Positions 1,882 through 36,287 of a stretch of 36,431 nucleotides of DNA are shown here, piece after piece. Below the pieces are notes generated by a model, which was not told the DNA's origin, did not search any database, and saw only the letters and a program-made list of their open reading frames with translations. How positions within the stretch are numbered: the first letter of the stretch is position 1; every line of letters starts with the position of its first letter. The stretch is from Terriglobia bacterium (GTDB lineage: Bacteria; Acidobacteriota; Vicinamibacteria; Vicinamibacterales; CAVVIG01), in NCBI GenBank assembly GCA_020073005.1, contig JAIQFX010000053.1, forward strand, positions 1 through 36,431, read 5' to 3'. Both the position numbers and the translations under genes were made by a program.

Positions 1882-3290
1882 GCGATCGCGCCGACGGTCC
1901 GACCGAACCCTATTCCCCACAACGTCGCACTGCGCTTGTCCTGGCCGGATCGGGAACGGCCGGGGCCTATCACGCGGGCGTCGTCCGCGCGCTGCACGAA
2001 GCGGGCGTGAAGCTCGATCTGGTCGCGGGCCGCGGCGTGGGGGTGGTGGGCGCGCTGTTTGTCGCGATCGACGGCGCGCATCGCCTGTGGGACGACAAAG
2101 GCCTCTGGCGCGCGCCGGTCGTGGCGACGCTCTACGGCTGGCGCGCCGCGCCGCGCGTGATTGCGGCCGCGCTCGCGGCCGCCCTCGCGCTCGTCGCCGT
2201 GCCGATCGCCGCCGTCGCGCTCGGCCTCGTCGTGTTCCCGATCGATTTCGTTCTCAAGATGGCCGGCGCGGGCGGCGCCTCGGGCCTGGTCGGCGCGTAT
2301 CTGCGCGCGGCCGACGCGGCATTCGCGCCGGCGGCGCTGCCGACGTGGCTGCCGCGACTCGTGCTGCTGGTGCTCGGCATCGCCGGCCTCGTCGCCTGCG
2401 GCGCCGGAATCGCCGAGAGCCGCGAGCGCGGGCGCGGCGGGTGGTGGTGGCGCGGCGTGCGGCCGCCGCTGTCGGCGAAGAGCGCGATCGATCAGTGCTG
2501 GCGCGTCCTCTGGGATCTCGTCGGCGGAGCGGCGCAGGTGACGCAGCCGTCGCCCGAGGATCTCGGGCGACGCTACGCCGATCTGCTGGCGGAGAACATC
2601 GGGCAGCCCGGCTTCTGCGAGCTCGTGATCACGGCGCACGACGCCGACGCGCATCGCGATCTGATTTTCGCGCTCGTCGACGAGAGCCGGCGGTCCGGGT
2701 TGATTCGCCGGTCGACGAGCGAGGCCGCGGACGCGCGGAGAGCGGAAGTGCTCGATCTCGCGGGCGTGGACCGCGATCGCCTCGCCGACGCCGTGGCCGG
2801 CGCGCTCACGGTGCCGCTGGCCACCGAGTGGCAGACGCTGACGTTCGCGCCGGACTCGTTCTGGCGGGGAGAAACGCACCGGCTGTGCGATCGACCGGCG
2901 AGCTTGATTCGGCTCCTCGACGAGCTGATCGACCTGGGCGTCGAGCAACTGGTGCTGGTCTCGGCGGCGCCGCAGGCCGCGGGACCGCACGCGCTGTCGG
3001 ACGCGCGGCTCGACTGCCGCGGCCGGCTCGGCGAGTACATGCAGTCGGCCGAGGCCGCCATCGTCCGCGACGCGACGACGACGACCGGCGGCGTGCGCAT
3101 CTTCACGATCCGGCCGGTCCATAACCCGATTGGACCGTTCGATTTCAGCGGCGGCTACGATGATCGATCGCATCGCGCGCAGGGCCTCGACGAGCTGATG
3201 AACCGGGGCTACGCCGACGCGTACCATCAATTCGTCGAGCCGGTGGTCGGCGCCAGTGGCGAGCGCGTGGGAAGTGTGAGGAGCCTATGA
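1878..3290 (+). CDS. Patatin-like membrane protein lacking the nucleophile serine
   Basis: 470 residues. The N-terminus carries the patatin glycine-rich loop GSGTAGAYHAGVVRAL (residues 24-39), normally the oxyanion hole. At the nucleophile elbow, where patatins have G-x-S-x-G, the sequence reads G51-R-G53-V-G55, so Ser is replaced by Gly; no convincing DG[G/A] catalytic aspartate follows either. Two to three hydrophobic stretches (about residues 93-130 and 155-176) suggest membrane anchoring, unlike soluble patatins. The C-terminal half is unrecognised. Overlaps greA (ATGA) and the downstream PLP enzyme (ATGA at 3287-3290), so it sits inside a three-gene operon. Expected to be inactive as a lipase (inference); it may bind lipid or act as a scaffold. 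Family call is moderate. Confidence 0.7.
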   Translation: MSDRADGPTEPYSPQRRTALVLAGSGTAGAYHAGVVRALHEAGVKLDLVAGRGVGVVGALFVAIDGAHRLWDDKGLWRAPVVATLYGWRAAPRVIAAALAAALALVAVPIAAVALGLVVFPIDFVLKMAGAGGASGLVGAYLRAADAAFAPAALPTWLPRLVLLVLGIAGLVACGAGIAESRERGRGGWWWRGVRPPLSAKSAIDQCWRVLWDLVGGAAQVTQPSPEDLGRRYADLLAENIGQPGFCELVITAHDADAHRDLIFALVDESRRSGLIRRSTSEAADARRAEVLDLAGVDRDRLADAVAGALTVPLATEWQTLTFAPDSFWRGETHRLCDRPASLIRLLDELIDLGVEQLVLVSAAPQAAGPHALSDARLDCRGRLGEYMQSAEAAIVRDATTTTGGVRIFTIRPVHNPIGPFDFSGGYDDRSHRAQGLDELMNRGYADAYHQFVEPVVGASGERVGSVRSL

Positions 3291-29840: not shown

Positions 29841-30476
29841 ATGCCTCTGACCGATGTTTATGTCCAGACGCCCTCTCAGTTTGGTGAGTTCTTCCGCCAG
29901 CTTCGCCAGGGCCAAGCTCCGCGCCAATTCACGAATCAACATCTCAAAGACCTCGGTTTCACTTCAACAAATCATCGAGCGTTTATTCCGCTCCTGAAGG
30001 CGCTGGGGTTTCTCACTGCGGATGGACAGCCGACGCCTCGATACCACGACTACAGGAACGAGGCACGTTCGCGCGACGTCATGGGCCAAGCCCTCAGGGA
30101 GGCGTACTCAGACTTATTTGTGCTTCGGGCGCATCCGACCGATGCCGATCGACCAATCCTTGAGGGGAAGTTCAAGAGCGCTCATAACGTGAGCGACAGA
30201 GTGGCCAAGCTAATGGCTGGCACTTTCTACGCGCTTCTACCGCTTGCTGACTTGCAGGCTGCCGTACCTGCCGCTGCTACGCCGATCCCTGAGAAGAAGG
30301 AAACACCCGTCAAGATCGAAGACGTCGAGCCCACAGACGAGGAGCATGTGCCGGCCAGAGGAGGAAGGCGCGGCACGAGCTTGCATTACAACATCCAGAT
30401 TCATCTGCCAGCGACGAAGGATATCGAGGTCTTCAACGCCATCTTCAGATCTCTCAAGGAGCACCTGCTTGACTAG
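29841..30476 (+). CDS. DUF5343-domain protein (partner of HEPN gene)
   Basis: 211 residues. Domain 1 (1-135) matches DUF5343: YVQTPSQFGEFFRQLRQGQAPRQFTNQHLKDLGFTSTNHRAFIPLLKALGFLTADGQPTPRY, a winged-helix-like fold. An acidic linker (PIPEKKETPVKIEDVEPTDEEH), then a small beta/alpha end with HYNIQIHLPATKDIEVFNAIFRSLKEHLL. ATG 29841 is inside a cassette with R' at 29789. Its stop overlaps the HEPN start, so both form one unit. Probably antitoxin/regulator of the HEPN protein (inference). Confidence 0.78.
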   Translation: MPLTDVYVQTPSQFGEFFRQLRQGQAPRQFTNQHLKDLGFTSTNHRAFIPLLKALGFLTADGQPTPRYHDYRNEARSRDVMGQALREAYSDLFVLRAHPTDADRPILEGKFKSAHNVSDRVAKLMAGTFYALLPLADLQAAVPAAATPIPEKKETPVKIEDVEPTDEEHVPARGGRRGTSLHYNIQIHLPATKDIEVFNAIFRSLKEHLLD

Positions 30477-31056
30477 CGCGCGGAAGGATCTGACGGATTT
30501 CTTGTTCCGTGGGCTCATGGTCGAATCCGAGGCGTCTCGATTCCAGGCAGCTGGCATACAGGTGGGTGCCGACGTTGGTCAGGCAGAGGAGCGCCTTCTC
30601 TCTGAAGCCCTCGCTCCGTTCGGTGTCGCGCTCCGTAATCGGGCACTTGAAATGGGTCGCCTCTACGCGGTGCTTCACTGCTTCGAAAACGAGATTCGTG
30701 GGCTGATCCGAGAGACGCTTGAGGAGAAGGAAGGCGCTGACTGGATCGAAAAGCTGCCCGCAAAGGTAAAGAAGTACGCGGAGGATCGACAGCAAGAGTC
30801 CGCGGCTGACACTTGGCTCGAAGGTGAGAAGAACGACATCCTTGGCTTCGTCGACTTCGGTCACCTCGCGTCGATCATGATTGAGAAGTGGCAGTTCTTC
30901 GAGGACATCGTGCCGTCGCAGCACTGGCTGAAGCAACGGATGGATGAACTTGAAAAAGCTCGCCACTACATCGCTCACAATCGGATGCTTCTGCCGACTG
31001 AGTTTCAGCGGCTGTACATGTATATCGCCGACTGGAATCGTGTGATCGGGCTGTGA
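30469..31056 (+). CDS. Swt1-type HEPN-domain protein (RX4H motif)
   Basis: 195 residues from TTG 30469, with AAGGAG (30457-30462) 6 bases upstream; overlaps the DUF5343 stop by 8 bases. Helical: RLYAVLHCFENEIRGLIRETLEE, WLEGEKNDILGFVDFGHLASIMIEKW, then DELEKARHYIAHNRMLLP, in which R165-x4-H170 is the RX4-6H catalytic motif of HEPN RNases (Swt1 clan). Expected to be a metal-independent RNase toxin, held in check by the DUF5343 partner (inference). Confidence 0.75.
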   Translation: MTSARKDLTDFLFRGLMVESEASRFQAAGIQVGADVGQAEERLLSEALAPFGVALRNRALEMGRLYAVLHCFENEIRGLIRETLEEKEGADWIEKLPAKVKKYAEDRQQESAADTWLEGEKNDILGFVDFGHLASIMIEKWQFFEDIVPSQHWLKQRMDELEKARHYIAHNRMLLPTEFQRLYMYIADWNRVIGL

Positions 31057-31065
31057 AGAGAGGCC

Positions 31066-31131
31066 GCCCAATCCGGCATGCAGCCGACAGCGCGCGTGAT
31101 CATGACGCGCTGCGGCTGAGCCTGGTTTTTG
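31066..31131 (+). other. attC site 1 (degenerate core)
   Basis: R''-like GCCCAAT (31066-31072), stem GCAGCCG-A-CAGCGCG with CGCGCTG-CGGCTG on the other arm, loop around GATCAT, R'-like GTTTTTG (31125-31131). Unpaired G and A in the same places as in the other sites. Confidence 0.6.
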
Positions 31132-31170
31132 CGGCGTGGTTCGGAACCGAGCTGCAGGGATGAGACACCC

Positions 31171-31667: not shown

Positions 31668-31751
31668 GCGTAACATCCGCCTGGAGCCGACGCGCCGACT
31701 GTCGCTTGTGATCATGTCACTGCGGCGCGCGGCTCAGGCGGGAGGTTAGAG
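31668..31751 (+). other. attC site 2
   Basis: R'' GCGTAAC (31668-31674), R' GTTAGAG (31745-31751), 84 bases. Arms CCGCCTG-G-AGCCG-A-CGCGCCG and CGGCGCGCGGCTCAGGCGG pair fully apart from the unpaired G and A. Confidence 0.8.
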
Positions 31752-31768: not shown

Positions 31769-32296
31769 ATGGACGATGCTCACGCAATCAGATGGCACGC
31801 TGAAGCCGGCAATGATCTGGAGACCTGGAGATCGTGCGCTGGTGATCTACTCATCGCAGCCTCCGTTCTTTTGCAACACCGGGAGCGAGTCGAGCGGGAC
31901 GTACCTTCATCAGATGCATGGAGGACCCATCCGAGTGAACTGATGTTACGGGGCATGGCAATCGAGTGCCTCTTGAAGGCGCTGTTGCTCAAGCGAGGGA
32001 ACGAGCTGGTGAAGGATGGCCAATACCAAGGGCCCAGCCACGATCTCCCGAAGCTGGCAGAACTTGTCCCGATCGAGATGTCGGCGCACGAGACGGACCT
32101 GCTTCGACGCTTGTCTCATTTCATCCGGTACGGAGGTCGATATCCGATCCCGAAACGCGCTCAGGAGTTGCGATTGCTTGAGAGTCCGCAAGGAGGGTTC
32201 TCGGCGGCGACGACCTGGACGACGCCGAGCGATCAATCTCTTTTCAACGCGTTGGTCGAGAAACTGGAGCGACTGATCGATGACCGATCTGCCTAA
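31769..32296 (+). CDS. HEPN-like helical hypothetical protein
   Basis: 175 residues from ATG 31769. Helices WHAEAGNDLETWRSCAGDLLIAASVLLQH, ELMLRGMAIECLLKALLLKRG, HDLPKLAELV, then RLSHFIRYGGRYPIPKRAQELRLLESP. The 'AIExLLKALLLK...HDLxxLA' phrase is typical of the HEPN fold, but there is no RX4-6H motif, so no RNase activity is claimed. Stop TAA is part of the next R'' (GCCTAAC). Cassette 3. Confidence 0.65.
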   Translation: MDDAHAIRWHAEAGNDLETWRSCAGDLLIAASVLLQHRERVERDVPSSDAWRTHPSELMLRGMAIECLLKALLLKRGNELVKDGQYQGPSHDLPKLAELVPIEMSAHETDLLRRLSHFIRYGGRYPIPKRAQELRLLESPQGGFSAATTWTTPSDQSLFNALVEKLERLIDDRSA

Positions 32297-32371
32297 CAGG
32301 CGATGGAGCCGACGCCGCACGCCGGTGTATCGTGACGGCGTGCGGCGCGGCTCATCGCCAATCCGTTAGAC
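32291..32371 (+). other. attC site 3 (best preserved)
   Basis: R'' GCCTAAC (32291-32297), R' GTTAGAC (32365-32371), both fully canonical, 81 bases. Arms GGCGATG-G-AGCCG-A-CGCCGCACGCCG and its complement pair perfectly but for the unpaired G and A; loop GTGTATCGTGA. Confidence 0.92.
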
Positions 32372-33450: not shown

Positions 33451-33468
33451 GCCTAACATACGTTGGGC
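33451..33468 (+). other. Collapsed attC (site 5): R''-ATAC-R'
   Basis: GCCTAAC (33451-33457) followed after ATAC by GTTGGGC (33462-33468). The two cores are canonical and complementary (one G-T), but the whole hairpin between them is gone. Confidence 0.7.
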
Positions 33469-33489
33469 GGATCAAATGAAAGGGAACAT

Positions 33490-34113: not shown

Positions 34114-34158
34114 GCACCCGTGTTGGTGCAACTGGAACATCGGTAACAGAATGAACCG

Positions 34159-34232
34159 GCCCAACATGCGCTGCAGCCGATGGGCGCGGTGTCACGAGCG
34201 TCGCGCCCGCGGCTGAGCGCCGACGGTTGATA
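34159..34232 (+). other. attC site 6
   Basis: R'' GCCCAAC (34159-34165), R' GTTGATA (34226-34232, off consensus). Arms GCGCT-G-CAGCCG-A-TGGGCGCG and CGCGCCC-GCGGCTGAGCGC pair with the same unpaired G and A. Confidence 0.78.
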
Positions 34233-34259
34233 TGACGGGCATGGATTTCGGAGATCGAA

Positions 34260-35024
34260 ATGACGCTCATCTTGACTGAATTGACGCCGTTTGGTATCGC
34301 GATGGCGGCGGACTCTGCGGTCACGTTCACACACCCGACAACCGGATACAGTTTCGTTCAGCCGAACGCTGCAGCAAAACTGCAGAGCATTCCGTCTTTG
34401 AACGCGGGCGTTTCATGCTGGGGCATCGGGGCGATTGAAGACGCGCCGACCGATGAGTGGCTCGCTGCCTTCATTCTCCAGAACGCGCACGTCCCGAGCA
34501 TCGGCGCGTTTGCCGCGGCGCTGGCGAGTGCCCTACAGGATGCTGTCGGTCCGAGCGAAGAAGGAATCCCTCGGCTCGGCTTTCACGTCGCGGGATTCGA
34601 GACGTACGAGGGCCAGCCATTGCCCTCCTTCTACCATGTCCATGACGGACCGAGCACCACTCTGGCTATGCGCGGCATCTCGGTCGATCCGCACCTGGTC
34701 AACGCGAACCACGACATGCCTCCGGCCGAGTACCTTAATCAAGTCGTCGCAGGCGGTGGCTGGATAACCCGAAATGGGGACTACCAGTTGTACGGACAGC
34801 TGTTCGGGCTCCTGGAGCAGTTCTTCGGTCACGTCGGTCAGCTCGGGATTGCGATCCCGAACTCGCAGAACTTGCTGGATCGTGCCCAGTACTTGATCTT
34901 TCAGATTCGCACCGTGTCCCACATCTACCGCCTGAGCAATCTCGTGCCGGGAATCGGTGGGCCGATCACGTATTTGACGATATCGCCGGGCGGCATCGAG
35001 GACGAGGGCGTCTCATATCACTGA
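34260..35024 (+). CDS. Predicted proteasome-like Ntn hydrolase (cassette-borne)
   Basis: 254 residues from ATG 34260 with GGAGA upstream. Opens M-T2-LILTELTPFGIAMAAD18-S, the same spacing as a proteasome beta subunit (Thr1...Asp17) once Met is removed; Lys40 in NAAAKLQSIPSL matches proteasome Lys33 allowing a 6-residue insert; the following GVSCWGIGAIEDAPTDEWLAAF matches the proteasome 'GxxAGxxAD' strand-helix. Hence an Ntn-type amidohydrolase or protease is predicted. The rest (residues 90-254) is unlike known proteasomes. Catalysis is inference. Confidence 0.65.
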   Translation: MTLILTELTPFGIAMAADSAVTFTHPTTGYSFVQPNAAAKLQSIPSLNAGVSCWGIGAIEDAPTDEWLAAFILQNAHVPSIGAFAAALASALQDAVGPSEEGIPRLGFHVAGFETYEGQPLPSFYHVHDGPSTTLAMRGISVDPHLVNANHDMPPAEYLNQVVAGGGWITRNGDYQLYGQLFGLLEQFFGHVGQLGIAIPNSQNLLDRAQYLIFQIRTVSHIYRLSNLVPGIGGPITYLTISPGGIEDEGVSYH

Positions 35025-35033
35025 ACATCGGTT

Positions 35034-35052
35034 GTGCCGTCTAACACGGCAC
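35034..35052. other. Hairpin with core-site loop (site 7, vestigial attC)
   Basis: GTGCCGT (35034-35040), loop CTAAC, ACGGCAC (35046-35052): a perfect 7-base hairpin. GTCTAAC (35039-35045) is a canonical R''. No R' follows before the next ATG at 35061. Confidence 0.5.
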
Positions 35053-35060
35053 GCACGGGG

Positions 35061-35786
35061 ATGAGTTTCGCCACACGGATCCGCGACCTTGAGCAGAAGT
35101 TCGCTGCTGCTGCAGCAGTTGACGGCGATGTTTATCTTCCCAATTTCACGCCCTCTGGCCCCGTCGATGCCGTGCTGATTGGGATGGAGCCGTCCCTCGG
35201 ATGGTGGGCTCATACGCCCGCTGAAGCGGCCCAGAAGATTGCTGCTGGGTTCCGGAACTTCATGTACTCGCCGGAGGATTTCATCCTCCACTACGCGGCT
35301 CGACGTTTCCTATGTTCAGCTGACGAGACCTACCACATTACTGACATCTCGAAGGGTGCCATGACTGTGGAAAAGGCGCACATCGATCGGCGTGTTCGTT
35401 ACGCTCGATGGACTGTCCTGTTGGATGAAGAGCTCCGGCTCATTGCGAAGCCGGGTGCTCACATCATTGGGATCGGCCGGGATGTGTGCAGCTTCCTGGA
35501 ACGCAGTGGTTTCGATCGTGAGGTCACGAGCATCATGCACTACTCGGCACAGGCCAGTCCTGCCAGGAACGCAGCGGTGAGAGGGCAAGAGGCTGAATTT
35601 CGCGCCTTCTCCGAGAGGTTGTCGATGCAGGCCGTTGTCGACGTCGCGGAGGATATCATGCGAGAGAATTCCGTTTCTGTCGCGATGTCTACGGAAACGA
35701 TCGCACGCTTGCGAAAGGCCAAGTTGTCCGAGTCACGCAAGAAGCTGGCGTTTATCTACTCGACTGTTTTCGCGAAACTCCACTGA
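35061..35786 (+). CDS. Uracil-DNA-glycosylase-like-fold protein (tentative)
   Basis: 241 residues from ATG 35061, with GGGG just before. Pattern VDAVLIGMEPSLGWWAH (motif A-like), HITDISKGAM, ELRLIAKPGAHIIGIGRDVCSFLERSGF, then SIMHYSAQASPARN (motif B-like H-x-S) recalls the UDG superfamily of DNA repair glycosylases. The catalytic residue set is not certain. Last gene of the array. Confidence 0.45.
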   Translation: MSFATRIRDLEQKFAAAAAVDGDVYLPNFTPSGPVDAVLIGMEPSLGWWAHTPAEAAQKIAAGFRNFMYSPEDFILHYAARRFLCSADETYHITDISKGAMTVEKAHIDRRVRYARWTVLLDEELRLIAKPGAHIIGIGRDVCSFLERSGFDREVTSIMHYSAQASPARNAAVRGQEAEFRAFSERLSMQAVVDVAEDIMRENSVSVAMSTETIARLRKAKLSESRKKLAFIYSTVFAKLH

Positions 35787-35834: not shown

Positions 35835-36287
35835 CAGCGCGTTCCATTTCATCAGCGCGTCGAATTGCCGTCGCTCGGCCGGCGTCATGGTGAGGATGCG
35901 GCGCTCCACAAACTCTGCAACGTCCATTCGTTCGCGGAGTGACGTGAGTTCTGCCGCCCAGGGCCGCGTGACGGCCGCGTAGCCCGCGCCGGCCGCTGCG
36001 GCCGACGCCAGGGCAAAGACGAGGGCGAGTGCCCAGCGCCGCCAAACACCCGGCCAGAACCGCTGCATCTCCATCTGCCGCCATCTGCGCGCTTCCTCAA
36101 TCGTGCGCCGCGCCTGGTCGAGCCAGCTCTGCTCCCGCTGGAGAATCGTGTGCAGCTCATCGTTGCGCGCCAGCGCATCAGCCTGTCCGCGTAGTTGGTG
36201 GAGGAGTTGAGAGACTTCCGTCAGACGGGCGTACACGCCGTCAGCGGCCTCTCGTTGCGCGCGAAACGTGTCGAGGGCAGTCGGCAT
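35823..36287 (-). CDS. Coiled-coil membrane protein of unknown function
   Basis: 154 residues from ATG 36287. Coiled-coil N-terminus (TALDTFRAQREAADGVYARLTEVSQLLHQLRGQADALARNDELHTIL), then WRRWALALVFALASAAAAGAGYAAV as one transmembrane helix, and a short helical end (RILTMTPAERRQFDALMKWN). Only gene facing left in this part, so outside the cassette array. I recall similar proteins near conjugative elements but cannot assign a function. Confidence 0.6.
   Translation of the reverse strand: MPTALDTFRAQREAADGVYARLTEVSQLLHQLRGQADALARNDELHTILQREQSWLDQARRTIEEARRWRQMEMQRFWPGVWRRWALALVFALASAAAAGAGYAAVTRPWAAELTSLRERMDVAEFVERRILTMTPAERRQFDALMKWNALQKR

Follow-up and report, generated by a model that had tools for sequence, protein, structure and literature searches.

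A proteasome-like Ntn hydrolase gene in a probable integron cassette of a Terriglobia bacterium

The window analysed here, i.e., the whole stretch of DNA under study, comprises 36,431 nucleotides of contig JAIQFX010000053.1 from the genome of a Terriglobia bacterium (GCA_020073005.1). An initial annotation, made from the sequence letters, described an integron cassette coding for a proteasome-like Ntn hydrolase, and the open reading frame (ORF) on which it was based is present in full, with its ATG at 34260, its stop codon at 35022-35024 and 254 encoded residues starting MTLILTELTPFGIAMAADSAVT. The ORF occurs once in the 5.86-Mb genome; it is preceded by an array of attC-like hairpins and followed by a further ORF on the same strand (Table 1). 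Single-protein searches with the 254-aa protein against Pfam, NCBIfam, PADLOC, plasmids, phages, and PDB sequences returned nothing significant, and profile matches in the PDB to glutaredoxin-like and V-ATPase proteins were dismissed as chance. The downstream ORF had no match in Pfam or PADLOC, and it may belong to the same cassette as the hydrolase gene because only a short palindrome lies between them.

Table 1. Positions in the window of the hydrolase gene, its predicted catalytic codons, and the surrounding features.
Feature	Position	Strand	Basis
attC-like site	31064..31142	+	fold z -2.8; arms match those of the 34152 site
attC-like site	31668..31751	+	fold z -4.1
Canonical attC, GCCTAAC...GTTAGAC	32291..32371	+	fold z -7.7
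attC-like site directly 5′ of the hydrolase gene	34152..34234	+	hairpin fold z -2.1
Putative ribosome-binding site, GGAG	34250..34253	+	sequence, 6 nt 5′ of the ATG
Proteasome-like Ntn hydrolase ORF, 254 aa	34260..35024	+	ORF, full-length relatives, AlphaFold2 model, profile-profile match
Thr2 codon, candidate nucleophile once Met is removed (proteasome Thr1)	34263..34265	+	Thr/Ser in 20/20 aligned relatives; model superposition
Asp18 codon (proteasome Asp17)	34311..34313	+	at least 90% conserved; in register with D17
Lys40 codon (proteasome Lys33)	34377..34379	+	invariant in 20 rows; aligned with the K33 region
Gly55 codon, putative glycine of the oxyanion hole (proteasome Gly47)	34422..34424	+	invariant in 20 rows; Gly47 equivalence by alignment
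Downstream ORF, no assigned function	35061..35786	+	gap of 37 bp to the hydrolase gene

Relatives of the protein were recovered at several depths, as the initial annotation had proposed to seek them. A scan of the genome collection gave two close relatives, each 59% identical: L002, from a Dehalococcoidia MAG, over the full length of the window protein, and L003, from an archaeal MAG, over residues 1-155, with divergence afterwards. L003 was used for residues 1-156 only, since it is divergent after residue 156 beside a transposase; at 2511-2729 of this locus the similarity is lost after residue 156 and a transposase-like gene follows on the opposite strand, an arrangement resembling a fusion or truncation. 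Full-length relatives thus occur in distant genomes, one of them scoring E=6e-99. Profile searches extended the set to L017 (E=1e-36), to L018 (E=8e-9), and then to remoter homologs from bacteria, archaea, and viral contigs. Weak genome matches (L004, L019, L020, L030, and L031) were discarded once their ORFs had been read. Comparison of the window gene with L002 yielded a pS of 0.78, which is saturated, and a pN of 0.30; saturated synonymous sites together with a kept protein indicate long-term constraint, i.e., purifying selection, and the ORF is real and conserved.

In a maximum-likelihood tree, the window protein, L002, L003, L017, and L018 are grouped with support of 98/98, and this five-member clade stands apart from the group containing HslV and the proteasome subunits. 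The clade carries a specific stretch (approximately residues 130-172), flanked by a core strand and the third core helix, which is shorter in phage and most other relatives. Among the viral contigs, L039 (5001-5657), L040 (4992-5654), L041 (5001-5657), and L042 (5001-5657) encode a proteasome-like Ntn protein of 218-220 aa placed between large tail-like and lysis-like genes, and the L039 and L040 proteins score above the PF00227 cut-off in Pfam. A further family of about 300-440 aa (L022, L032, L034, L035, L073, L076, and L077) has proteasome-like N-termini starting MTAEIAI.N..A.ALAADSAVT and a C-terminal GGPIDVA.IS, and was likened to multi-insertion homologs (PMC8665760).

Structure prediction and structural search, which the initial annotation had named as checks, agreed with its reading in part. 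A template-free AlphaFold2 model with 20 relatives reached a pLDDT of 86.8 and a pTM of 0.87, although the uncharacterised proteasome-like relatives added to the alignment could bias the model towards the proteasome fold; an earlier model from three sequences was poor (pLDDT 44.5). In Foldseek searches, only proteasome subunits were found among the matches listed for the poor three-sequence model, and all the matches listed in the PDB for the 20-row model were likewise proteasome subunits. The 20-row model shows the strand-helix order of the alpha-beta-beta-alpha proteasome sandwich, the lack of which would have refuted the initial annotation, and ends in a strand at 245-252. VIA-align superposes it on human beta-1, a catalytic 20S subunit (Z 17.9, rmsd 3.2 Å, 184 residues), and on Anbu 5nyw (Z 17.9, rmsd 3.1 Å, 192 residues), and in the superposition residue 2 of the model coincides with mature residue 1, although identity to solved structures is low (12-18%). 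When a profile of the clade together with intermediates was compared with one of a beta/alpha/HslV/Anbu-like set, the probability was 97%, in register over 191 columns, against at most 0.8% for reversed decoys. The five-member clade alone reached 28.5% against the proteasome sets, and the link to the proteasome family therefore runs through intermediate relatives. The model and profiles support a proteasome-type Ntn-hydrolase fold for the 254-aa protein.

The same fold and nucleophile could also serve a protein ligase or transpeptidase, as in connectase, or an amidase or acylase of small molecules instead of a peptidase. Connectase acts as a protein ligase although it is a monomeric homolog of the proteasome (PMC8665760), a weak match to the connectase model PF09894 (E 0.063) was seen for one relative, and ring assembly could be blocked by the clade-specific insertion. 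By contrast, the first helix pair, absent in connectase, is kept in the window protein (helices 64-74 and 81-96), and protease subunits and Anbu head the structural matches, so that we consider a ligase or small-molecule amidase unlikely.

Candidate defence genes occur in several of the neighbourhoods. An adjacent gene pair (29841-31056) bordering the attC array on its left side matches the PADLOC candidate defence models PDC-M34A (DUF5343, E 1e-72) and PDC-M34B (HEPN_Swt1, E 2e-65). On the viral contig L038 (770-10443), a Ser2 relative lies in a defence-island-like setting amid Fic, type IIG restriction-modification, PLD-like, and PDC-M68B genes, and the relative in L017 is directly followed at its 3′ side by a gene (2314-3057) with an RDCIVH motif and a weak HEPN match (PADLOC RTasHEPN, E 0.004). 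These three settings would suit a phage-defence effector that, upon infection, cleaves a protein of the phage or of the host and thereby protects the host. However, PADLOC has no model for the hydrolase, the remaining relatives are found next to housekeeping genes or within phage tail-lysis regions, and no recurring partner gene was found around the ten relatives examined, which makes such an effector rather improbable. The defence or regulatory peptidase suggested in the initial annotation is thus possible but without direct support, the candidate defence genes of the array being separate from the hydrolase gene, and a defence role for the hydrolase is only a possibility.

With regard to the genetic setting, the hydrolase gene starts 26 bp after the attC-like site at 34152-34234, whose R″ box (GCCCAAC, 34159-34165) is correct and whose R′ box (GTTGATA, 34226-34232) is off consensus. 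The four attC-like hairpins, all located between same-strand ORFs, rank with the strongest in the region; just one further stretch, coding DNA at 35933-36064, is of comparable strength. The sites at 31064 and 34152 have a common arm pair, GCAGCCGA...CGGCTGAGC, of which the 5.86-Mb genome contains only these two copies, and the four sites were aligned poorly by MAFFT. Intergenic short palindromes with a YYTAAC-like half-site, like reduced attC sites, are also observed at 33454-33470 (GCCTAACATACGTTGGGC) and 35036-35054 (GTGCCGTCTAACACGGCAC). No integrase gene was found on the window contig; the genome encodes an integron integrase on another contig, C19 (L013; TIGR02249, 383.9 bits, above the curated cut-off). 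At 2827-5865 of L013, the integrase is accompanied by at least two canonical attC sites towards the contig end, with arms unlike those of the window array. We regard the array in the window as either a CALIN-type cluster or a detached fragment. Three intergenic places of L002 (588-603, 2198-2213, and 2932-2946) share a 15-nt element, and approximately 36 bp 5′ of the ATG of the relative there is a perfect R′ (GTTAGGC); this closest full-length relative probably resides in a cassette context amid integron-like intergenic repeats.

The array might alternatively be no integron at all, with an ordinary chromosomal gene caught between chance hairpins, as could be argued from the off-consensus R′ box and z of only -2.1 at the nearest hairpin, the lack of intI on the contig, and the mere short palindrome 3′ of the gene. 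The canonical site at 32291 (z -7.7), the position of four of the strongest hairpins between same-strand ORFs, the confinement of the common arm pair to the window array, and the intI with its own attC sites elsewhere in the genome render a chance arrangement very unlikely. The cassette setting claimed by the initial annotation accordingly stands as regards the attC-like array with its canonical site, and is weakened by the nearest R′ box, by the presence of only a short palindrome 3′ of the gene, and by the location of the integrase on another contig.

The catalytic residues were followed in a 20-row alignment consisting of relatives only, from which proteasome, HslV, and Anbu rows were left out. 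Position 2 is Thr or Ser in all 20 rows, which also share Lys40 and Gly55 without exception, and at least 90% of the rows retain Asp18, with Glu in two; given this conservation, the catalytic pattern is more than chance. Thr2, Asp18, and Lys40 thus follow the proteasome catalytic order, as had been claimed, whereas the claimed proteasome spacing holds in part: the distance from Thr2 to Asp18 equals that from T1 to D17 exactly, but Lys40, residue 39 counting from Thr2, lies six residues beyond K33. The shift is explained by a longer preceding loop, the length of which differs among relatives. Some proteasome subunits are inactive, and the protein could by analogy be a catalytically dead homolog with a structural or binding role like the alpha subunits, but this is highly improbable because the nucleophile position and the Lys are kept in 20/20 relatives with Thr/Ser exchange only, as for a working nucleophile.

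The gene is best explained as an integron cassette encoding a proteasome-like Ntn hydrolase, to which we assign a probability of roughly 80%; this core of the initial annotation was contradicted by none of the tests run. Following known Ntn chemistry, Met1 would be removed by methionine aminopeptidase, as Thr at position 2 allows, and the amino group of Thr2, once free, would act as the general base. The hydroxyl would be activated by Asp18 and Lys40, the oxyanion would be held with the help of the Gly55 backbone, and peptide or amide bonds in some substrate would be cleaved without a dedicated unfoldase. The predicted activity is most likely that of a threonine peptidase or amidase, and one may guess that the clade-specific stretch sets substrate choice or the oligomeric state. 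A bolder proposal, which we hold to be quite doubtful, is that the clade spreads between phyla as integron cassettes whose product, a threonine protease or ligase that matures by itself and works alone without any unfoldase, gives the host a trait open to selection, for example resistance to phages or to stress.

Integron cassettes mostly encode proteins of unknown function, and, to our knowledge, no role is known for proteasome homologs beyond HslV, Anbu, BPH, and connectase. The compact cassette gene, with neither a propeptide nor an ATPase requirement, is ready for cloning and testing, and, if active, its product would be a proteasome-like enzyme that a cell could acquire through one mobile gene.

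The proteasome-like fold family is widespread and already known. In prokaryotes and phages, 22 subfamilies of novel proteasome homologs were described by Fuchs, Alva, and Lupas (2021), among them WPH, PHI, PMI-1 to -6, FC1-5, PPH, and AAH (PMC8665760). Like the window protein, these homologs have a proteasome-like fold, a Thr/Ser nucleophile with Asp, Lys, and an oxyanion glycine, and neither a propeptide, a linked AAA+ partner, nor an assigned function. The initial annotation was right that a propeptide and a partner ATPase are absent; however, propeptides are confined to proteasome beta and HslV, and neither co-occurring AAA+ interactors nor telling gene contexts were found for the novel homologs (PMC8665760), so that this absence is ordinary for the group.

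HslV belongs to the same fold family and has a similar Met-Thr start region and Asp/Lys order, but it works with its partner HslU, is shorter (about 172-187 aa among the sequences here), and falls into another clade of the tree. No unfoldase gene was found among the ORFs neighbouring the window gene, and an HslV identity was ruled out by the separate clade and by this lack; the HslV proper of this genome is encoded separately, on contig C119. Anbu superposes as well as beta-1 (Z 17.9) and also lacks a propeptide, although identity is 14% and the long C-terminal helix of Anbu (PMC8665760) is missing in the window model. Connectase is similar in being a proteasome homolog that functions without an ATPase; it has lost the first helix pair and gained a two-helix insertion at S3/S4 (PMC8665760), and its architecture was rejected for the window protein, in which the first-pair helices are kept and the AlphaFold2 model predicts no helices in residues 19-40.

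As in CALIN clusters and cassettes of unknown function, the window array consists of promoter-poor same-strand ORFs split by attC-like hairpins, and it differs from them in encoding a proteasome-like hydrolase. Integrons are not mentioned by Fuchs and colleagues (PMC8665760), and, in agreement with the initial annotation, no earlier report of a proteasome-like or Ntn hydrolase integron cassette was found in the open-access literature searched. What is new in comparison with the known homologs is the cassette location, together with a five-member clade, distinct in the tree but possibly part of one of the 22 subfamilies, that has its own stretch at approximately residues 130-172 as an extra insertion.
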